Assembly (NCBI GenBank): GCA_012517325.1
Contig: JAAYVF010000047.1
Span: forward strand, 1 to 62,383
DNA: 62,383 nucleotides
Direction of reading: 5' to 3'
Source of the DNA: Myxococcales bacterium
GTDB taxonomy: Bacteria; Lernaellota; Lernaellaia; Lernaellales; Lernaellaceae
Below, piece by piece: positions 41,525 to 61,166 of this stretch. The notes under the pieces were generated by a model. It was not told the origin of the DNA. It saw only the letters and a list, made by a program, of their open reading frames with translations, and made no database searches. Both the position numbers and the translations under genes were made by a program. The first letter of the stretch is position 1; each line of letters begins with the position of its first letter.

Positions 41525-41859
41525 TTGCCATTCACTCCCTTTTGGGATCCTGCCGACTGTCGTTCACCTTAGCATCCGTCTGCCGGCGTTGTCCACCAAA
41601 GCGAAATCCGCGAACCGGGCGATGGCGAACCCGGCAAGATGATTATTCAGTGCAAATAATGCTTTCGGGTCGGTGCACGGTTCGTATGTTCAAAGTTCCG
41701 GAATTGGCGTGCTCGTCCCTGCCGCTTTTCGATCTTGCTATTTGGCCCTAAATGCAGGATAATACTAACTATGGATTAATTAGATGATTTGCATGCTTCT
41801 TGTGGGGTCGGGCGCGAATCCGAAAAGATTGAATCGTTATTTTGTCCAATGGGGGGATA
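41525..41859. other. Divergent intergenic region upstream of the signalling operon
   Basis: 335 bases without a convincing gene. A possible TAATAC -10 (about 41760) lies 100 bases before the ATG at 41860, but no good -35 is correctly spaced. I looked for a -24/-12 element here and found none (the TTTGGCCC...TGC near 41740 has the wrong spacing). Confidence 0.3.
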
Positions 41860-42522
41860 ATGAAAAAAAGCAATACGCCCAGGGCAATGAAAAAAATACG
41901 GAAACCCGTTGCGATAAAAAAGCCTTTCCAGAATGAAGAAGGGAGAAAAAAGAAAATGGAAAAAGGGAAAATGGATGCCGCCAAAGCGCCAGTTTCATCC
42001 CAACCGGCCACCGGAAACATTGATCAGATTCGCGATATTCTTTTCGGCAACCAGGTTCGCGAATACGACAAACGATTCGCGGAAATGGAAGAACGGTTCT
42101 CAAAACGATTGTTGGACCTGCGGACCGAAACCACCAAGCATTTCGAGTCGATCGAAAATTATTTCAAGGGCCAGTTCGACAGCATGGCTGATCAATTGAA
42201 AGAAGAAAAGGACGAACGGACCGGCGACCACAAACAGTTGGAAAGGGATCTGAAGGAGACCGCCGCGTCGTTCGAGAAAAAATTATCGAAATTGACTGAA
42301 CAAACCGCCAAGTATGAAAAGGAATTGCGCCAACAATTGCTCGAGCAATCCAAAACCTTGCGCGAGGAAATCCGGCAAAGCATCGAGGATCTTTCAACCG
42401 CCGTCACGCGTCAGTTGGACGATCTGCGTGGCGCGAAAACCGATCGCGCCGCCTTGGCCGCCTTGTTCATGGATGTCGCCATGCAACTGAACAGCGAAAT
42501 CGCGCCCAATTTCGATAAATAG
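41860..42522 (+). CDS. Basic, coiled-coil protein
   Basis: 220 residues from the ATG at 41860, with GGGGGGA directly upstream. The first about 45 residues are Lys-rich. Then GNIDQIRDILFGNQVREYDKRF leads into a long coiled coil (about 70-190) rich in E/K/Q heptads. GNIDQIRDILFG resembles the DELQKLRHLLLG of the next gene, followed in both by an acidic coil, suggesting interaction or common origin. First gene of a plus-strand cluster; no enzymatic motif. Confidence 0.7.
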   Translation: MKKSNTPRAMKKIRKPVAIKKPFQNEEGRKKKMEKGKMDAAKAPVSSQPATGNIDQIRDILFGNQVREYDKRFAEMEERFSKRLLDLRTETTKHFESIENYFKGQFDSMADQLKEEKDERTGDHKQLERDLKETAASFEKKLSKLTEQTAKYEKELRQQLLEQSKTLREEIRQSIEDLSTAVTRQLDDLRGAKTDRAALAALFMDVAMQLNSEIAPNFDK

Positions 42523-42533
42523 TCATTCGCACG

Positions 42534-44300
42534 ATGAGCGATGAATCTCGGCCAGTCGTAACGACCGCGGAAAGGGAGGCGATTCCCACGTCCGGCGGCG
42601 ATGAACTGCAAAAATTGCGGCACTTGCTGCTGGGCAAGGAGCAATCCCAGATCGGCCGGCTGGAGGAGGAAGTCGACAAGTGCCGCCCCACGGCTGAGAA
42701 TCTCGCTTCGGTTCTTCCCAAGGCTATTGACCGGGCTACCGCTCTCGACGATCAGCGGCTCACCGACTCGCTTGCGCCGACGGTCGAGAAAGCCATTCAG
42801 ATTTCAGTGAAAAAGGACGCCACGCCGCTGGTCAACGCGTTGTTTCCGGTAATGGGTCCGGCAATCCGTAAGGCGATCGCCGAAACCTTCAGCGGAATGA
42901 TCCAATCGTTGAACCTGGCGCTGGAAAAAAGCTTTTCCGTCCAGGGGTTGAAATGGCGGCTCGAAGCCTGGCGAACCGGCAAGCCTTTCGGGGAAGTGGT
43001 TTTGCTGCACGGCCTGGTGTTTCGGGTGGAGCGGATCTTCTTGATCCACCAGAAAACCGGCGTGCTTTTGTGGCATGCCGCCGACGATGCCGCGCAGTCG
43101 CAGGACGGCGACATGGTTTCGGGCATGCTGACGGCGATTCAGGATTTCGTGCACGATTCGTTCGCCGTGCGGCAAGGCGATAAACTGGAAACCATCCAGG
43201 TCGGCGAACTGAAAGTATGGATCGTGCAGGGGCCGGCCGCCTTTCTCGCGGCGGTGATTCGCGGCGACGCGCCGGAATCGTATCACGAGGTCCTGCACGA
43301 AATTCTCGAACAGGTCCACCGCGAGCGCGGGCGGGAATTGGCGGAATTCACCGGCGATACGGAGCCTTTCGCGGCGATCGAGCCCGAATTGCGGCGCGGA
43401 TTGCGCGCCCAATACAAGGAAAAGGAGCACTCGCTCCGGCGGGCGTATCTGGCGCTGGGCGCCGTTCTGGTCGCGCTGCTGTTGTGGACGGGTTTTCTGA
43501 CGCGGGACAATCTGCGGTGGGCGGATTACCTGGCTCGCTTGGGTTCCGAACCGGGTCTGGTCGTGGTCGAGAGCGGCCACCGTTTCGGCCGCTATTGGGT
43601 CAATGGGTTGCGCGATCCGCTGGCCGCCGATCCGGCTTTTTTGCTGTCCACCGTCAAACTGAATCCGAAAAAAGTGTCCAGTCGGTGGCAGCCCTTTCAA
43701 TCCCTGGACGATAAATTGCTGTTGAACAGGGCCCGGGCCGTCCTGCTGCCGCCGGAAAAAGTATCCCTCCGGCTCGAAAACGGGACGTTGTTCCTTTCCG
43801 GCGTCGCGCCACATTCATGGATCGTCGCCGCCCGGGAACGAGCGCGGGGAATAGCTGGGATTGTCGCCCTGGATACGAAAACCTTGTTGGACGAGGATGG
43901 GGATCGCCTCCAGGCGCTCAAGGCGCGCGTTGAAAAAGCGGAGCTATGGTTCCAGGTGAATTCCACCCAATTGCTGCCCGACCAAATCGACAAGTTGGAT
44001 TCTCTGGCCGCCGATATTCGCGAAATCGACGCGACCGCGACGCGCACGGGCCAAACCGCGCGTTTTCGGTTGATCGGCCGAGCCGACAGCCGCGGCACCG
44101 AGGCGGTCAATGCGCAGCTCAGCCAACGGCGGGCGGAGGCCGTCGGGCGAATTTTGTTTTCAAAAGGTCTGCGAACTGATATCTTTTCCGTGGATGGGTT
44201 GGGCGCGAATAAACCATTGGAATCGGAAGACACCGAGAACGGACGGGTTCGCAATCGCTCGGTGGTGGTGGAAGTCGTGATAACCGGCATCGTCCCATAA
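42534..44300 (+). CDS. Inner-membrane protein with C-terminal OmpA-like peptidoglycan-binding domain
   Basis: 588 residues. The N-terminal about 270 residues are cytoplasmic (a LRHLLLGKEQSQIGRLEEEV coil, then a basic domain with WHAADDAAQSQDGDMVSGML). One transmembrane helix (RAYLALGAVLVALLLWTGFL, about 300-320) leads to a periplasmic part with a BON-like segment (VSLRLENGTLFLSGVAPHSW) and a C-terminal OmpA domain (LWFQVNSTQLLPDQIDKLD ... GRADSRGTEAVNAQLSQRRAEAV ... NRSVVVEV). It links the wall to a cytoplasmic domain, and the next gene is a Ras-like GTPase 11 bases downstream. Similar OmpA/GTPase pairs suggest envelope sensing. The start has no strong ribosome site. Confidence 0.78.
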   Translation: MSDESRPVVTTAEREAIPTSGGDELQKLRHLLLGKEQSQIGRLEEEVDKCRPTAENLASVLPKAIDRATALDDQRLTDSLAPTVEKAIQISVKKDATPLVNALFPVMGPAIRKAIAETFSGMIQSLNLALEKSFSVQGLKWRLEAWRTGKPFGEVVLLHGLVFRVERIFLIHQKTGVLLWHAADDAAQSQDGDMVSGMLTAIQDFVHDSFAVRQGDKLETIQVGELKVWIVQGPAAFLAAVIRGDAPESYHEVLHEILEQVHRERGRELAEFTGDTEPFAAIEPELRRGLRAQYKEKEHSLRRAYLALGAVLVALLLWTGFLTRDNLRWADYLARLGSEPGLVVVESGHRFGRYWVNGLRDPLAADPAFLLSTVKLNPKKVSSRWQPFQSLDDKLLLNRARAVLLPPEKVSLRLENGTLFLSGVAPHSWIVAARERARGIAGIVALDTKTLLDEDGDRLQALKARVEKAELWFQVNSTQLLPDQIDKLDSLAADIREIDATATRTGQTARFRLIGRADSRGTEAVNAQLSQRRAEAVGRILFSKGLRTDIFSVDGLGANKPLESEDTENGRVRNRSVVVEVVITGIVP

Positions 44301-44311
44301 AGGCCGCGGCG

Positions 44312-44809
44312 ATGATCAAAAAGAAAATCTGCCTCCTGGGCGCGTTTGCCGTCGGTAAAACCAGCCTGATCGAACGGTACGTTCAAAGCGTCTTTTCCGA
44401 CAAATATCACGCGACGGTCGGCGTGAAAGTCGATAAAAAAGAGATCCGGGTCGCCGATCAGGAGGTGACTCTGTTGATTTGGGATGTCCAGGGAGAGGAC
44501 GAGATCCAGAAAATCAATGCGAATTATCTGCGCGGATCCGCCGGATTTTTTCTGGTGGTGGACGGTACCCGGCGGGAGACGGTCGAGGTGGCGCTGGAAA
44601 TCGCCCAACGGACGGTTGACGCGGTGGGCGAAATCCCGCTGGTGGTGCTGCTGAACAAGACCGATTTGGAAGACGAATGGGAATTGGGGGCGGATGAGAT
44701 GGAAAAGTTGTCCGCGCGCGGCTGGCTGATCGCGAGGACCAGCGCCAAATCCGGTCTGGGCGTGGAAGAAGCGTTTCAACACCTGGTCGTGAAAATTCTA
44801 TCATCCTGA
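44312..44809 (+). CDS. Ras/Rab-like small GTPase
   Basis: 165 residues, a single G domain: G1 GAFAVGKTS (10-18), G2 Thr in HATVGVKV, G3 WDVQGED (57-63), G4 NKTD (115-118) and G5 TSAKSG. In G3 the position of Ras Gln61 is Glu, and Gln sits one place before the conserved Gly, so intrinsic GTP hydrolysis may work differently from Ras. No membrane anchor. It is sandwiched between an OmpA-domain membrane protein and a sigma-54 activator, suggesting a switch between wall status and transcription; that link is inference. Weak ribosome site. Confidence 0.9.
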   Translation: MIKKKICLLGAFAVGKTSLIERYVQSVFSDKYHATVGVKVDKKEIRVADQEVTLLIWDVQGEDEIQKINANYLRGSAGFFLVVDGTRRETVEVALEIAQRTVDAVGEIPLVVLLNKTDLEDEWELGADEMEKLSARGWLIARTSAKSGLGVEEAFQHLVVKILSS

Positions 44810-44858: not shown

Positions 44859-46565
44859 TTGCCGGGCGAAATCCTGGCGTACTTGGATCAGATCCTCTCC
44901 GAAAGCCGACCGATCGCGTTTTTGCGGATCGATCCCGAAGGCTTGCCGCTGCATTGCGGCGGGGACTGCCGGCACTTCGGCCTGGACTCGTTGCGCGAGG
45001 CGATCCGGGTGGACGACCAGCTCGATTTTCTGTTCGGCCTGTTGCCGCTGCCGGATGAAAGGCTGGTTCTGCCGCTGGTGCGGATGGCGAACGGTTCGAT
45101 CGCGGAAGTCCATCTGGTCCGGGACGACGCCGCGGGCGACTGGATCCTTTTGATCGATGCCGGCGCCCATGCCAGAGAGCACCTGAGGATGCAGCAATAC
45201 GCGGACGACTTGAACCTCCTGCGCAAGCAGCAAGAGCGGCTGCTGGCTCGCATCGAAAAGAACAACCAGGACCTGCAGACCATTTTCAATCAGATGCGGC
45301 TGATCACCGCCATCGTCGAGGGCGACGGCCGCGTTTCGTTCATCAGCGAAACCGGTCAGCAATGGTTGCAGCGCGACGCCGCGCAGATCATCGGTTTGCC
45401 CTGGGAAGAGGTGCTGCCGTTTGCGGAGCAGGATCAGGACCGGATCCGGAATTTATTTTCCTTGCCGGCCGGCCAGCGCGAAAAACTTCACCTGCACGGG
45501 CAGACCGAGCCGGGACGGCACTTTTGGATCGAACTCGACCTGCAAGACGATCCGCGCGACGCGAATAGAAAAATCATCCATCTCTACGACTGGACGGAAA
45601 TTCACGATCTGCGCCGCCAGCTCGACGAAAAGGTCCGGTTTCAGGGACTGATCGGAAAAAGCAAACAGATGGAACAAGTCTTCGACCTCATCCAGGAAGT
45701 GGCGGCGGTCGATTCCACTGTATTGATCGAGGGCGAAACGGGATCCGGCAAGGAACTGGTCGCGCGGGCGATTCATCATTCGAGCCTGCGCAAGGACAAG
45801 CCGTTTATTGCCGTCAACTGCGCCGGTCTGGTCGACTCGTTGATCGACAGCCAGCTCTTCGGACACAAAAAGGGCGCCTTCACCGGGGCGATCACCGACC
45901 AGATGGGCGTGTTCGAGGCCGCGGACCAGGGGACGCTGTTTCTCGATGAAATCAGCGACATTCCGCCCAACGTGCAAACCCGGATTTTACGGGCGCTGGA
46001 ACAGCGGGAAATCACCCGCATCGGCGAAACGAAAATCCGCCAGGTCAATGTCCGCATCCTGGCTGCCACCAACAAAGACCTGAACCTGGAGGTCGAGAAG
46101 GGGAATTTCCGGTCGGACTTGCTGTACCGCATCCGCGTGGCGCGGATCACGATTCCCCCGTTACGCGATCGCGGTTCGGATATTCCGTTGTTGGCCGACG
46201 TGTTTCTGAAAGACGCCGGCGCTTCAGCCGGCAAGGAAATCGACGGCTTCAGCAGCGAGGCCATGCGCATCCTGTGCGAGCATCAATGGCCGGGAAATGT
46301 CCGCGAATTGCGCAATGCCATCGAATACGCCGTGATTTGTTGCAAGGGGCCGGTCATTCAGGCCAGGAACCTGCCGCCGGAAATATCGGAATCCTCCGTT
46401 CACCACAAGGTCGACGGCTTGCTCCGGGATTTGGATGAAAAGGAACGGATCATCGTCGCCCTGCAAAAGACGCGCGACAACCGCAAAGCCGCCGCGAAAC
46501 TGTTGGGCATCAGCCGGGCCACTTTGTATCGTTACCTGGAAAAGTACGGTCTTTCCGCCAAGTAG
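44859..46565 (+). CDS. Sigma-54-dependent activator with PAS and N-terminal kinase-like sensor domain
   Basis: 568 residues if started at TTG 44859. An ATT at 44826, seven bases after GGAG and in frame, is an alternative, so the start is uncertain. N-terminal about 110 residues: a sensor-like domain with the same layout as the N terminus of the histidine kinase at 46799 (LPGEILAYLDQIL..., GGDCRHFGLD). A coiled segment and PAS-like domain follow (about 130-255), then the AAA+ core: GETGSGKE (292-299), GAFTGA (339-344), GTLFLDE and WPGNVREL. A Fis-type helix-turn-helix lies at the end (KAAAKLLGISRATLYRYLEK). There is no receiver domain, so control is probably by ligand or partner. Confidence 0.9.
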   Translation: MPGEILAYLDQILSESRPIAFLRIDPEGLPLHCGGDCRHFGLDSLREAIRVDDQLDFLFGLLPLPDERLVLPLVRMANGSIAEVHLVRDDAAGDWILLIDAGAHAREHLRMQQYADDLNLLRKQQERLLARIEKNNQDLQTIFNQMRLITAIVEGDGRVSFISETGQQWLQRDAAQIIGLPWEEVLPFAEQDQDRIRNLFSLPAGQREKLHLHGQTEPGRHFWIELDLQDDPRDANRKIIHLYDWTEIHDLRRQLDEKVRFQGLIGKSKQMEQVFDLIQEVAAVDSTVLIEGETGSGKELVARAIHHSSLRKDKPFIAVNCAGLVDSLIDSQLFGHKKGAFTGAITDQMGVFEAADQGTLFLDEISDIPPNVQTRILRALEQREITRIGETKIRQVNVRILAATNKDLNLEVEKGNFRSDLLYRIRVARITIPPLRDRGSDIPLLADVFLKDAGASAGKEIDGFSSEAMRILCEHQWPGNVRELRNAIEYAVICCKGPVIQARNLPPEISESSVHHKVDGLLRDLDEKERIIVALQKTRDNRKAAAKLLGISRATLYRYLEKYGLSAK

Positions 46566-46593
46566 AGATTTTCCCAGTCGGTTGGTCACCATA

Positions 46594-46637
46594 AGACACG
46601 ATATAAGACACCATTGAGACACCCGTGACAGGCTGTC
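46594..46637 (+). promoter_or_regulatory. Candidate upstream activator sites (GACA repeats)
   Basis: AGACAC at 46594-46599, 46606-46611 and 46617-46622 (one per helical turn) and the dyad GACAGGCTGTC at 46627-46637. They lie about 80-125 bases upstream of the -24/-12 element, where enhancer-binding proteins bind, and just after the gene of such an activator. Confidence 0.5.
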
Positions 46638-46717
46638 CCAGGTTCGCCTTTCGGCCGAAAACGGTTCATCTATTTGATTTAATTGTGAATTTTATTTCAT
46701 TTCTCGATACACCGATT

Positions 46718-46733
46718 TGGCATGCGCCATGCT
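46718..46733 (+). promoter_or_regulatory. Candidate sigma-54 (-24/-12) promoter
   Basis: TGGCATGCGCCATGCT matches the sigma-54 consensus TGGCACG-N4-TTGCT with two mismatches and the exact GG-N10-GC spacing. It is 66 bases before the kinase ATG at 46799, leaving a leader of about 55 bases. The region between activator and kinase genes is otherwise non-coding. Confidence 0.65.
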
Positions 46734-46798
46734 TTTTAGGGAAAATGAAGCGATTCTTTCGGTTTGCGATCGAACCAGGCTCGAAAAAAGAGGAAATA

Positions 46799-47977
46799 AT
46801 GGATAGAATGCCGGAACTTATTTCTGATTATCTCTTAGATATAGTTTTGAGAGATCTCACTCCGGCCTATTTCCAGATCGATGAAAAAAAACGGCTCCTT
46901 TCCTGGGGGGGCGATCTTGGAAAATTTGGAATCGACCCGGATCATCACGTGTCGCTAAGCATCGGTGAGCCGATTATCGATCTGCTGCCCTTTCTGGAAG
47001 GAGCGTTTCCGGCGGCCGGCGAGACGATTTGCCTACCGTCGGTGGAATTAACCTCGGAACGTTTTGCCGACGTCCATCTCATTTCGGGAGAGACCGGATA
47101 TCGTATCCTGCTTCTCGATTCGACGACCGTGACCACTCAACAAAAAGCCCTACGTGAAAAGATCAATGCCTTGCGACTGTCCAACGCGCAGAACGCGCGG
47201 CTGATGAAAAAATTGAATTTTGTCAATAACTTATTAGTGGACTCGATGAAGCAGGTCCAAGCGAAAAATAAGGTTTTGCGAGAAATCGCCCAGAAGCGGG
47301 AAGAATTTTTCAGCTCGGTGCTGCATGACATCCGTTCGCCGCTCTCCTCGGTCCAGATGTTCATGGATGGAATGAAATTGGGCGTTCTGGGCGAACTGAG
47401 CGAAAAGCAGAAAAAGTTGTTGGATCGGTTGGCTGAGGCGCTAAAGAAGCAAATGTCCCAGATCAACGAAATGGTCGTCTCCGTCCAGTACGATGTCGAT
47501 GATCTACGCTTGGATCGACAAACGGCGAACCTGAGTGAGTTTCTGCAGGAAATCTTTGTTGAGTTCAAACCGATCGCCCGGAAGAAAAACGTGGATCTCT
47601 TTCTGATGGAAACCGACGATCTTCCCGCCGTGCAATTCAATAAAAATAAAATCCGACGAGTACTTGAAAATTACCTCACAAACGCGATAAAATTTACTCC
47701 TGAGGGAGGAAAGGTTATTTTATTCGCAAGCTTTATCGCCGAGGAGGCGGCGATCAAGGTGTCGGTGCGTGACACGGGCGTGGGAATCGACGCGGCAGAC
47801 ATCCCGAAATTATTTCAAAAATATCAACGCGCGAACAACAAGCCCACTGGTGACGAACCGAGTTGCGGGCTTGGCTTGTATATTTGCCGGCGCATCGTCG
47901 AAGCGCACGGCGGCAAGACTGAAGTTCAAAGCCAGATCAATAACGGCAGTACTTTTTCTTTCACCTTGCCGGTCTGA
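46799..47977 (+). CDS. Soluble sensor histidine kinase
   Basis: 392 residues from the ATG at 46799 (AGAGGAAATA upstream). The N-terminal about 115 residues share the sensor layout of the adjacent activator ([26 protein letters not shown]). A coiled coil leads to HisKA with the phospho-acceptor His in [11 protein letters not shown] (about H176) and a HATPase domain: N-box [11 protein letters not shown]1 RDTGVGID, G2 [16 protein letters not shown]. No transmembrane helix, so the signal is cytoplasmic or comes through a partner. The neighbouring activator has no receiver domain, so its phosphorylation target is elsewhere or unconventional. aqpZ starts 42 bases downstream. Confidence 0.9.
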
Positions 47978-48019: not shown

Positions 48020-48718
48020 ATGTCCTTGAATAAACGCGCTCTGGCCGAGATGATCGGCACCTTTTGGCTGGTTTTCGGCGGTTGCGGCAGCGCCGTGCTG
48101 GCAGCGGCGTTTCCGGGAGTCGGGATCGGTTTCCTGGGCGTCGCGCTCGCCTTCGGTCTGACCGTGCTGACGATGGCCTACGCGATCGGCCACATTTCGG
48201 GTTGCCACCTGAATCCGGCGGTGACGGTCGGGTTGATCGTTGGCAAGCGTTTCCCGCTGAAGGAAGCGCCACACTACGTGATTGCCCAGGTCATCGGGGG
48301 GATTCTTGGCGCGGGGGTCCTCTATTTGATCGCCAGCGGCAAAGCGGACTTTTCGCTCGCCGGGGGTTTCGCCGCCAATGGTTTCGGCGAGCATTCTCCC
48401 GGCGGTTACAACCTGCCGGCCGCGCTGGTGGCCGAGATCGTGCTGACCTTCATGTTTCTGATGGTCATTCTCGGTGCGACCGATCCGCGCGCTCCCCAAG
48501 GATTCGCCCCGCTTGCCATCGGCCTGGCGCTGACCTTGATTCATCTGATCGGCATTCCCGTCACCAACTTGTCGGTGAATCCGGCGCGGAGCACCGGCCC
48601 GGCCGTGTTCGTCGGCGGGTGGGCGCTGGCCCAGCTTTGGCTCTTCTGGGTCGCGCCGATCGCCGGCGCGGCGTTGGCCGGGATCGTGTATCCGCTGATT
48701 GGGAAAAACAAAGAATAG
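48020..48718 (+). CDS. aqpZ: Aquaporin Z
   Basis: 232 residues, AAAAGGAG upstream. Six membrane helices and the two pore NPA motifs, HLNPAVTVG (about 63-71) and [11 protein letters not shown] (about 184-194), with Arg after the second NPA as in water channels. Phe at the first selectivity position (LAFGLTV) and the overall length match AqpZ rather than the glycerol facilitator. It passes water across the inner membrane. It is probably co-transcribed with the histidine kinase 42 bases upstream. Confidence 0.95.
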
Positions 48719-48794: not shown

Positions 48795-50588
48795 ATGAAA
48801 AGAACACTGTTTGTGGCGCTAGCGGTCGCACTTTTGCTTACCGCCGCGGCCTTTGCGGAGGACACCGCGATTCTCACCGACGACAAGGGATTCAACCTGG
48901 CGCACTTCCGTCCCAATATTTTCGGCGGCCATTACCTGGCCATCGAGGATTCGGCGGCGCTGTGCCCCTGGACCATCGGCGGCGGGCTCTACTACGAATA
49001 CGTCAACAAGCCGTTTTCCTATTACAAAGACAGCGGCACGGGCACGGAAACGGAACTGGATTATATCGGCCACTATCAGGGCATCCACGGCGTGCTGGCC
49101 TTCGGTTTGTGGGAATGGATGAGCCTGGGCGCGACCGTGCCGTACTACATGGCCCGGATGCGTCCGGTCGAGGATTTCAGCCTGGCCGATCCACCGGCCA
49201 CTTTGCCGGAATTGTCGAACGAGAGTTTTCTCGGTGACGTGAAAGCCGAAATAAAATTCATGCCGCTCGATGCGAAGGAGCACGTTTTCGGCATCGCCAT
49301 CGCGCCGTACGTCAACTTCCCGACCGCCCCGAAAGACAGCCTGTTCGGCGAGGGCCGCACCACGGGCGGCGGCAACTTGATCCTGGGTGTCGACACGAAA
49401 TACATCAACTTCATGGCCAACGGCGGGTATCTCTACCGCGGCAAGGGCGAATTGATGACCGCGGAAATGGGCGACGCCATCACCTTCGGCGCCGGCATCG
49501 GCAATGCCTATGACAGCGGCTTCGAATGGTCGATCGAGGGCTTCGGCTCTTACTATTTCATGGACGACGAAAACGACATCCTGAAAAACAACGTCCCGGT
49601 GGAAGTCCTGGCCACGCTGCGCTATCGCTTCGGCGCCAATGGTCCGCGGATCGTCGCCGGCGGCGGCACGGGCCTTTCGGGCGGCCCCGGCGCCGGCCAG
49701 TACCGCGTGGTCGGCGGCATCGATTACTTCTGCCACAATTGCGGCCCCGAAACGGGCGTCCTGACCATCAAAACGGTCGACCAGAACAACAAGCCGCTCG
49801 CGGCCACCCTGTCGATCGTCGCCCCCGACGGTAAGAGCCAGACCGTCGCCTCCACCGGCGAATGGAACTCGGAATTCGTCGTCGGCGATTACAGCGCGAG
49901 CGCCTCGCGCGAAGGGTTCCAGGGCGATAAGCGGTCCGCTTCGCTGTCCGCCGACGGCGCGGTGATCACGCTGATGCTCAAGGAGATCGTCAAGCCGAAA
50001 TCGCCCACCACCGTTTCGCTTTCGCTGCTCGACAAATGCAGCAACAAACCGGTGAAGGCGGCCGTTGTGCTGAAAGACGGCGCGGGCAAGGAAACCGCCA
50101 TCGCGGTCGGTGAAAACGGTTACCAGGGCGCGCTGGCGGCGGGAACCTACCAGGTCACGATCTCGGCGGACGGCTATCAGCCGAAGACCGACTCGGTCAC
50201 CCTCGTCGCGGAGAAAGACACGCCCCTCAAGGTCGCGTTGATCAAAAAAATCGAGTTGAAAGGCACGATCTTCTTCGCGGTCGCCAGCGACAAGATCCTG
50301 GCGAAGTCGTTCCCGGTGATCGACGACGCCGCCGAACAGATCAAGGGTCTCTGCCAATATTCCAAGATTCGCCTCGAAGGGTACACCTCCTCGGAAGGCA
50401 AGCTGGAAATGAACAACGAGCTGTCGAAGAAGCGCGCCGCGGCCGTGAAAGCCTATCTGGTAAAGAAAGGCATTCCGGCCGACAAGTTGGAATCCGAAGG
50501 CTACGGCCCGAAGAACCCCATCGCGCCGAATGACACCGAAGCGAATCGCGCGAAGAACCGTCGCGTCGAGTTCATCATCGTCGAATAA
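48795..50588 (+). CDS. Outer-membrane barrel protein with two carboxypeptidase-like Ig repeats and OmpA domain
   Basis: 597 residues; the signal peptide ends AFA. Residues about 25-310 form a beta-barrel with alternating strands (FRPNIFGGHYLAIEDSAAL ... NGPRIVAGGGTGLSG). Two Ig-like carboxypeptidase-regulatory repeats follow (GVLTIKTVDQNNKPLAATLS; TVSLSLLDKCSNKPVKAAVVL). The C-terminal OmpA domain has IFFAVASDKILAKSFPVIDD, EGYTSSEGKLEMNNELSKKRAAAV and NRRVEFIIVE. It ties the outer membrane to peptidoglycan. The barrel is homologous to the stand-alone protein at 54630. A 16-bp perfect hairpin follows the stop. Confidence 0.87.
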   Translation: MKRTLFVALAVALLLTAAAFAEDTAILTDDKGFNLAHFRPNIFGGHYLAIEDSAALCPWTIGGGLYYEYVNKPFSYYKDSGTGTETELDYIGHYQGIHGVLAFGLWEWMSLGATVPYYMARMRPVEDFSLADPPATLPELSNESFLGDVKAEIKFMPLDAKEHVFGIAIAPYVNFPTAPKDSLFGEGRTTGGGNLILGVDTKYINFMANGGYLYRGKGELMTAEMGDAITFGAGIGNAYDSGFEWSIEGFGSYYFMDDENDILKNNVPVEVLATLRYRFGANGPRIVAGGGTGLSGGPGAGQYRVVGGIDYFCHNCGPETGVLTIKTVDQNNKPLAATLSIVAPDGKSQTVASTGEWNSEFVVGDYSASASREGFQGDKRSASLSADGAVITLMLKEIVKPKSPTTVSLSLLDKCSNKPVKAAVVLKDGAGKETAIAVGENGYQGALAAGTYQVTISADGYQPKTDSVTLVAEKDTPLKVALIKKIELKGTIFFAVASDKILAKSFPVIDDAAEQIKGLCQYSKIRLEGYTSSEGKLEMNNELSKKRAAAVKAYLVKKGIPADKLESEGYGPKNPIAPNDTEANRAKNRRVEFIIVE

Positions 50589-50734: not shown

Positions 50735-51577
50735 ATGAACACCAGTTTTCGTCACGTCCTATCGGCGACAGTGGTCTTTGCGGCCATGTCGGTCATCGCG
50801 ATGATGATCTCCTGCGGGGGCGGCGACGATGACGACGATAACGCCGTTGCGCCGTTTTCGCTGTACCTGATCGATGCGCCGGTAACCGACGCCGATGAAA
50901 TCAACCTGACTATCAATGCCGTTGCGGTGAATGGCCCGGAAGGTTGGACCGATCTGGCCGTCACGCCGGAACGCTACAACCTCCTGGAACTGATGAACAA
51001 CGCCGGAGTGGTGTTGGCCGAACAGGATTTACCCGCGGGCGATTACGGCGAAATCCGGCTGGTAATCGAATGCGAAGGTGACGAAGCGCCCGAGATCGTG
51101 ATCGCGGGTGAGAGTTATCCGCTCCAGGTACCGAGCGGTTGCACCAGCGGTTTCAAACTGAAGGGCGAGTTTTCGTTGGTCGCGGGTCAGGAAACCATGC
51201 TGATCATGGATTTCGACATGACGAAGTCCGTGCATGAAACCGGCAACGGCAAGTACCTGCTGAAACCGGTGGTCCGGTTCGTGCAGGCGGACGCTGCCGG
51301 CAATCTCATCGGCCTGGTGACGCCGGTCGTGCCGCGTACCGTCGTTTACGCCTTCGAAGCCGGCGCCTTCACCGGCGATAATTTCGACGACGCCGTCAAC
51401 TCGACGATCATTCGCGATGACGGCACCTTTACGATTGCGGCCTTGCCGGCCGGCTCCTACGATGTGGTCGTGGTGGCCGCCGGTTACGAAATCGCCGTTT
51501 ATGTCGAGGATGTCGTCATCGAGGCCGGAACCGACCGGACGCTGGAAAATCCCATCGAGCTGACGCCGGAATCGTAA
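50735..51577 (+). CDS. DUF4382 lipoprotein with short N-terminal Asp run
   Basis: 280 residues; AGAAAGG lies upstream of the ATG. The lipobox ends MISC (Cys 27) and is followed by GGGDDDDDN, the shortest acidic linker in the group. The main domain matches DUF4382 (FSLYLIDAPVTDADEINLTINAVAV, NLLELMNN, LPAGDYGEIRLVI, LKGEFSLVAGQE). The last about 80 residues are a carboxypeptidase-like repeat (FTIAALPAGSYDVVVVAAGY). Function unknown; probably at the inner face of the outer membrane or the cell surface. Confidence 0.82.
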   Translation: MNTSFRHVLSATVVFAAMSVIAMMISCGGGDDDDDNAVAPFSLYLIDAPVTDADEINLTINAVAVNGPEGWTDLAVTPERYNLLELMNNAGVVLAEQDLPAGDYGEIRLVIECEGDEAPEIVIAGESYPLQVPSGCTSGFKLKGEFSLVAGQETMLIMDFDMTKSVHETGNGKYLLKPVVRFVQADAAGNLIGLVTPVVPRTVVYAFEAGAFTGDNFDDAVNSTIIRDDGTFTIAALPAGSYDVVVVAAGYEIAVYVEDVVIEAGTDRTLENPIELTPES

Positions 51578-60456: not shown

Positions 60457-61166
60457 TTTTTCCGTCACCTCGGCTTCGCCGACCGCGTGTCCACGGTAGG
60501 AGCGGCTTAGCAGCCGCGATACAAACCCTACGCCGTCTTTTCGTGCGCCAGCCGGAATCCACATGACTGCCGACATGGGTGCTTCATGCCGTAGGCATGG
60601 TTGAAAATAGCCCAGCGTTTCAACGCTGGGTTTCGGTTCGCGCCATTGTTCTTCGTGCCGTAGGTACGTCCGCATGATCTCCCATATTTTTCGTGGTGAA
60701 TCATGTGTCGAGGCACGTCCCTGACGGGACGAAACAATCCGCGGCGTTCATCCCCAGCGTTGAAACGCTGGGCTGGATTCAATCGTCTCTGACGGGACGT
60801 TAGGATATTTTGAAAACCCTATGCCGTCGTTCCCGGCGAAAGTGGGAATCCACACCACCGCCAACCGACCTTTCATGTCGCCGCCCACCAACCCGTCATG
60901 CCGAACTTTTTTCGGCATCCGGAATCCACACCGCTTTCACTTTGAAAATTCTCTGATTTACAAGACTTGACTTTGACAACGCAAGATAGTGTTATTTATC
61001 CATGTGCTGGGGAATAGTCGAGAAGTCTGTTGTGGGGATTCCGACGGCGGTCGAAGAATGGAGTTAAATAATGCTCCAGAAATTTTAATTTCTATATACT
61101 ATCCCCGGAAATAGACGGAAATTGATCAAGACGTATTCGGAATGACTTGGTGAGAAGGAAATAATT
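60457..61166. repeat. Gene-free region with REP-like palindromes
   Basis: About 710 bases without a gene. CCCAGCGTTTCAACGCTGGG (60611-60630) and its reverse complement (60753-60772) form an inverted pair of 20-base palindromes. Around them lie CATGCCGTAGGCATG, CGTGCCGTAGGTACG, CCTGACGGGACG (twice) and GGAATCCAC (three times, 60554, 60845 and 60921 approximately). This is typical of dispersed bacterial REP-type elements. The right part (60960-61166) is AT-rich and leads to a broken gene. Confidence 0.7.

Follow-up and report, generated by a model that had tools for sequence, protein, structure and literature searches.

A predicted sigma-54 promoter region between the gene of a Rup-linked activator and a histidine kinase gene in a Lernaellaceae genome

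What drives the histidine kinase gene that lies directly behind a sigma-54 activator gene in this member of the Lernaellaceae? Within the window, by which we mean the whole stretch of 62,383 nucleotides that was analysed, the two genes are separated by an intergenic gap of about 230 bp from the activator stop to the kinase ATG at 46799, which is preceded by GAGG. The features that bear on the question are given below; G005 is a genome from another family of the same class.

44859..46565, + strand: sigma-54 activator with PAS-like N-terminal domain, PAS domain, AAA+ domain with GAFTGA, and Fis-type helix-turn-helix (HTH) with the helix GISRATLYR (Pfam, open reading frame)
46592..46622, + strand: three tandem half-sites, TAAGACAC, TAAGACAC and TGAGACAC, the predicted activator binding (enhancer) sites (uniqueness in own genome, 11-bp tandem common to the G005 locus)
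46624..46640, + strand: degenerate dyad CGTGACA-GGC-TGTCCCA, probable fourth and fifth half-sites (TGAnACA with 2 and 1 mismatches)
46667..46679, - strand: IHF-type site AATCAAATAGATG with 1 mismatch, which may bend the AT-rich spacer it lies in (similar site in the G005 spacer)
46718..46733, + strand: predicted sigma-54 -24/-12 promoter element TGGCATGCGCCATGCT (best score in the window, one of 7 genome matches, positional counterpart in G005)
46799..47977, + strand: histidine kinase sharing the N-terminal domain of the activator, whose direct target we propose it to be (open reading frame, Pfam, domain comparison)
48020..48718, + strand: MIP-family aquaporin (aqpZ-like), probably second in the transcript (open reading frame, Pfam, 43-bp gap)

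The machinery for a sigma-54 promoter is encoded in the genome. The activator has the domains of a bacterial enhancer-binding protein (PF00158, Sigma54_activat, 1.2e-67; PF02954, 4.9e-11), it is one of about 20 sigma-54 activators in the whole genome, and there is a single RpoN with an intact RpoN box, ARRTVTKYRE. The element TGGCATGCGCCATGCT has the exact GG-N10-GC spacing that the initial annotation had read at 46718-46733, differs from TGGCACGNNNNTTGCW at 2 positions, and, by an approximate sigma-54 matrix, has the top score of the 62-kb window, both strands considered. The pattern TGGCAYGNNNNWTGCW has 7 matches in the 5.2-Mb genome, against 1 for the reversed pattern, and all 7 are non-coding with a plausible start codon shortly downstream. 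Because the genome is mostly coding, we take this as strong support that the pattern marks real promoters. A plain consensus search allowing 3 mismatches showed no enrichment in the window alone (77 found, about 99 expected). From the position of the promoter, a transcript would be expected to start near 46744.

A 9/12 sigma-70-like match, TTGGCA-N18-GAAAAT at 46717-46746, overlaps TGGCATGCGCCATGCT, and on this reading the kinase would be transcribed from a sigma-70 type promoter and the -24/-12 match would be coincidental. We consider this improbable: eight such matches occur in 11 kb against 3.5 expected by chance, so the match is weak, and the reading leaves unexplained the conservation in G005, described below, of GG-N10-GC together with the half-sites.

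Upstream of the predicted sigma-54 promoter, AGACAC occurs at 46594, 46606 and 46617, in steps of 12 and 11 bp. The three copies proposed by the initial annotation are thus present, with a small correction of their spacing from one helical turn to 11-12 bp; the proposed dyad is also present, as GACAGGCTGTC at 46627-46637, but it is a weak copy of the half-site. The sites had been placed about 80-125 bases upstream of the promoter, directly after the activator gene, and we measured 81-124 bp from the -24 element; the distances from the activator stop are 29-57 bp for the sites and 153 bp for the promoter. Nowhere else in its own genome does the triple AGACAC recur, even when 3 mismatches are allowed, and tandem AGACAC arose in 6 of 20,000 shuffles of the window gap (6 and 1 of 20,000 trials for the shuffled gaps). 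Across the 7 genomes of the phylum, AGACAC-N(3-8)-AGACAC occurs at five separate loci, the tandem with an 11-bp period (AGACAC-N5-AGACAC) at only two, the window and G005:C7, and GAGACA-N(1-8)-TGTCTC once, at the same G005 locus. The other three exact tandems (G000:C27, G004:C120 and G005:C56) have no obvious sigma-54-type element or activator within 250 bp on either side. Single copies of TGTCT/AGACA downstream of other activators were taken as chance; clusters of such half-sites were absent after the other activators examined.

Among the 7 genomes, G005 is the only other one with a homologue of the activator beyond the common AAA+ core. The two closest genomes, from the same family, are without this activator, and a scan of genome contigs with the activator gave two hits only, both to unrelated activators through the AAA+ domain. 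The G005 protein is 45% identical to the window activator over residues 110-566. Its stop codon is directly followed by GAGACGCTGAGACAAATGTGAGACACACAGTGTCTCGAATGTGTCTC, with GAGACA/TGTCTC sites 25-60 bp after the stop, and TGGCGCACTTGTTGCT, again a GG-N10-GC element, lies 136 bp after the stop and about 80 bp beyond the sites, with the top score of the 20-kb stretch by the same approximate matrix. The equivalent of the window dyad is TGAGACACACAGTGTCTCG. Alignment of the two gaps at the DNA level showed nothing convincing beyond the motif. The window half-sites read TGAGACA once and TAAGACA twice, and that of G005 reads TGAGACA; we assign both to the half-site TGAnACA, which is also that of the second phylum described below. 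One condition named beforehand for the failure of the prediction was that relatives do not keep the -24/-12 and GACA sites; at the G005 locus, the one homologous locus, both are conserved along with the activator. IHF-type sites in both spacers, with shuffle probabilities of 0.11 and 0.15, are only suggestive.

Three features of this comparison count against our reading: there is only one homologous activator in the 7 genomes, the G005 activator has a receiver domain where the window activator has its Rup N-terminal domain, and the gene downstream in G005 encodes a 146-aa protein and not the kinase. The different target gene suggests that the activator and its sites persisted while the target was swapped. 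The window genome has its own homologue of the 146-aa protein (28% identity), behind a different sigma-54 site and a different activator (G000:C76, L073). These proteins belong to a small family of about 140 aa with no Pfam family over cut-off (L068:9697-10137, and L073 on the reverse strand of G000:C76, start near 1420), whose genes stand, in two families of the phylum, behind two different activators as their apparent sigma-54 targets.

A profile of the HTH led to an activator group in another phylum, carried by 71 of the 82 genomes searched. Where it was read, the recognition helix of these activators is typically GIGRATIYR, which gives the joint pattern GI[SG]RAT.YR with the window activator. 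Their 3' flanks commonly contain TGGTAY....TTTGC, a GG-N10-GC element, mostly 130-330 bp after the stop, with palindromes upstream of it such as TGAGACAGTGTCTCA, TGATACACTGTTTCA and TGAAACACTGTTTCA. Of 70 flanks, 23 matched the palindrome TGAnACAnTGTnTCA at no fewer than 10 of 12 positions, commonly with GG-N10-GC alongside; among shuffled flanks the share was 2.2%. The palindrome was defined after part of the flanks had been viewed, and this count is partly descriptive. A matrix built from the second-phylum sites alone, with no window data in it, ranked the G005 cluster first in 20 kb and the window cluster second in 62 kb. That the window cluster is second and not first counts against our reading, as does the lack of clear palindromes in the more divergent second-phylum members. 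It also counts against our reading that the spacer of the dyad is not constant (1 bp in the second phylum, 3 bp in the window, 5 bp in G005), while the half-site is kept. The second-phylum activators (L114-L183) are response regulators with TGAnACAnTGTnTCA and TGGTAY....TTTGC downstream, apparently an uncharacterised sigma-54 regulon.

Might the AGACAC sites serve a different regulator, or the activator bind elsewhere, with the promoter driven by one of the other activators? The genome has about 20 activators, and members of this class are known to cross-activate where dedicated sites are lacking. The same half-sites nevertheless stand directly after the G005 homologue and after the second-phylum activators with the same helix, and such clusters are absent after the other activators examined; we regard this explanation as unlikely. 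Taken together, the conservation in G005 and the occurrence of the same half-site under the same recognition helix in a second phylum make control of the kinase by the adjacent activator likely, as the initial annotation had proposed. Its extension to aqpZ is only plausible: the 43-bp gap between kinase and aqpZ contains no terminator, and the two genes are probably co-transcribed. A 10/12 sigma-70-like match inside the kinase gene (47664-47693, +) is a possible internal promoter for aqpZ. Beyond aqpZ lie a second OmpA-domain protein (48795-50588) and, downstream, a DUF4382 protein with a carboxypeptidase-regulatory-like domain (50735-51577, +).

The repeats also lie just past a stop codon, and among the second-phylum examples one, L114, is a dyad that would form a perfect hairpin. 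This would suit a role in RNA, as a transcription terminator or another structure where the activator gene ends, rather than in protein binding. We rejected this reading, which we consider highly improbable, as the gap has no Rfam match and terminator-like stems occur at the chance rate, the sole one nearby (46653-46666) being weak. Moreover, the window repeats are direct and not inverted, no T-run is present, and half-site orientation differs between the window and G005 while the sequence is kept. The sole Rfam match of the window is an Acido-Lenti-1 RNA (RF01687) at 60585-60630 (-), with 49.8 bits.

As a predicted site for protein binding, the arrangement resembles that of NtrC-class activators that switch on an adjacent gene: the activator has an AAA+ domain with GAFTGA and a Fis-type HTH, and tandem sites lie about 80-125 bp upstream of GG-N10-GC across an AT-rich spacer. 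It differs in the N-terminus of the activator, which consists of a Rup output-module domain and a PAS domain, with no receiver. QseF/GlrR of enterobacteria bind the consensus TGTCN10GACA (PMC8745638) or TGTN12ACA (PMC6075780). The window shares with them GACA/TGTC in the half-sites and several sites in tandem, and QseF/GlrR have IHF assisting. The recognition helix (RNRTEFYKLL in the Pantoea relative L023), the spacing and the orientation are different, however, and the QseF/GlrR activator is a response regulator. Neither TGTC-N10-GACA nor TGT-N12-ACA is found in the gap, whose only TGTC (46634) has no GACA downstream. In the literature searched we did not find the half-site TGAnACA, nor GAGACA or TGAAACA with sigma-54.

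The initial annotation had noticed neither a GTPase cassette in the three genes upstream nor the sensor domain that activator and kinase share.

41842..42522, + strand: Rup cassette protein with coiled coils (gene order as in Mesorhizobium pWSM1497)
42534..44300, + strand: Rup cassette membrane protein with an OmpA domain (gene order as in Mesorhizobium pWSM1497)
44312..44809, + strand: small GTPase, Ras-like, of the Rup type (Pfam Ras, 2.6e-29; 50% identical to a Rab family GTPase of Mesorhizobium)

In Group 1 Rup neighbourhoods, as described by Wuichet and Sogaard-Andersen (2014; PMC4316618), a coiled-coil protein and an OmpA protein are accompanied by an output module and by a Rup GTPase in which the catalytic Gln is absent. 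The output module has a conserved N-terminal Gln and is typically a c-di-GMP enzyme (diguanylate cyclase/phosphodiesterase fusions) or a histidine kinase, and the defining paper reports no experimentally characterised interactions for these cassettes (PMC4316618). In the window the four kinds of gene are consecutive, from the coiled-coil and OmpA proteins through the Ras-like GTPase to the output module, and the GTPase G3 motif is DVQGED where Ras has DxxGQ, leaving the catalytic Gln missing. At their N-termini the activator and the kinase have a domain in common, about 140 residues long (30% identity, 6e-15); in its putative conserved Gln column the activator keeps Gln (RMQQYADD) and the kinase has Glu (ALREKINA). 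The domain has no Pfam family, and a fold search gave only weak PAS-like matches, the best to the TyrR N-terminal domain (E 2e-3), so that we call it PAS-like with modest confidence. All its occurrences found outside the window immediately follow a gene for a Ras-like GTPase; these are in Mesorhizobium pWSM1497, where the order is coiled-coil, OmpA, Rab GTPase and output (cyclase), and in three further genomes. The fusions of the domain found after the GTPase gene are varied: a histidine kinase-receiver hybrid, an HD-GYP type, a stand-alone form and a nucleotide cyclase (L187, L188, L189 and L184). In these respects the cassette is like Group 1 Rup cassettes, with an output module that has the conserved N-terminal domain and the Gln; unlike typical members, its fourth gene encodes a sigma-54 activator, and next comes a kinase gene that encodes the same domain and has a predicted promoter to itself. 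Given that the upstream gene order and the shared domain match the Group 1 architecture, we infer that the state of the GTPase probably controls the activator.

We propose that the activator, acting as the output module of a Group 1 Rup cassette with its activity set by the GTPase via the N-terminal PAS-like domain, would use its Fis-type helix to bind the T(G/A)AGACA half-sites arrayed in tandem at 46592-46640. The AT-rich spacer would loop, the AAA+ domain would open the RNA polymerase-sigma-54 complex waiting at TGGCATGCGCCATGCT, and transcription would run from about 46744 through the kinase, which carries a copy of the activator's N-terminal domain, and probably through aqpZ. That the gap is a genuine-looking sigma-54 promoter, with predicted promoter and predicted activator binding, is well supported by computation. 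We judge it very likely, from sequence comparison, that the gap before 46799 is an enhancer-dependent sigma-54 promoter region from which the Rup-linked activator fires the kinase, and probably aqpZ. The fuller proposal, in which the activator reads the state of the Ras-like (Rup) GTPase directly, through its N-terminal domain, and then fires the linked promoter of the same-domain kinase, is more tentative, and we would put it at somewhat below an even chance.

We suggest that this locus offers a testable binding rule, in which the helix GI[SG]RAT.YR is predicted to read TGAnACA. The rule spans two phyla that are represented here by genome sequence alone. The locus also appears to be a case of an activator and its sites persisting through a swap of the target gene. 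For the little-studied Rup GTPase cassettes, sigma-54 transcription would be a new output: if the proposal is true, it stands here in place of the cassette's usual second-messenger or kinase output, and the kinase provides a second one.
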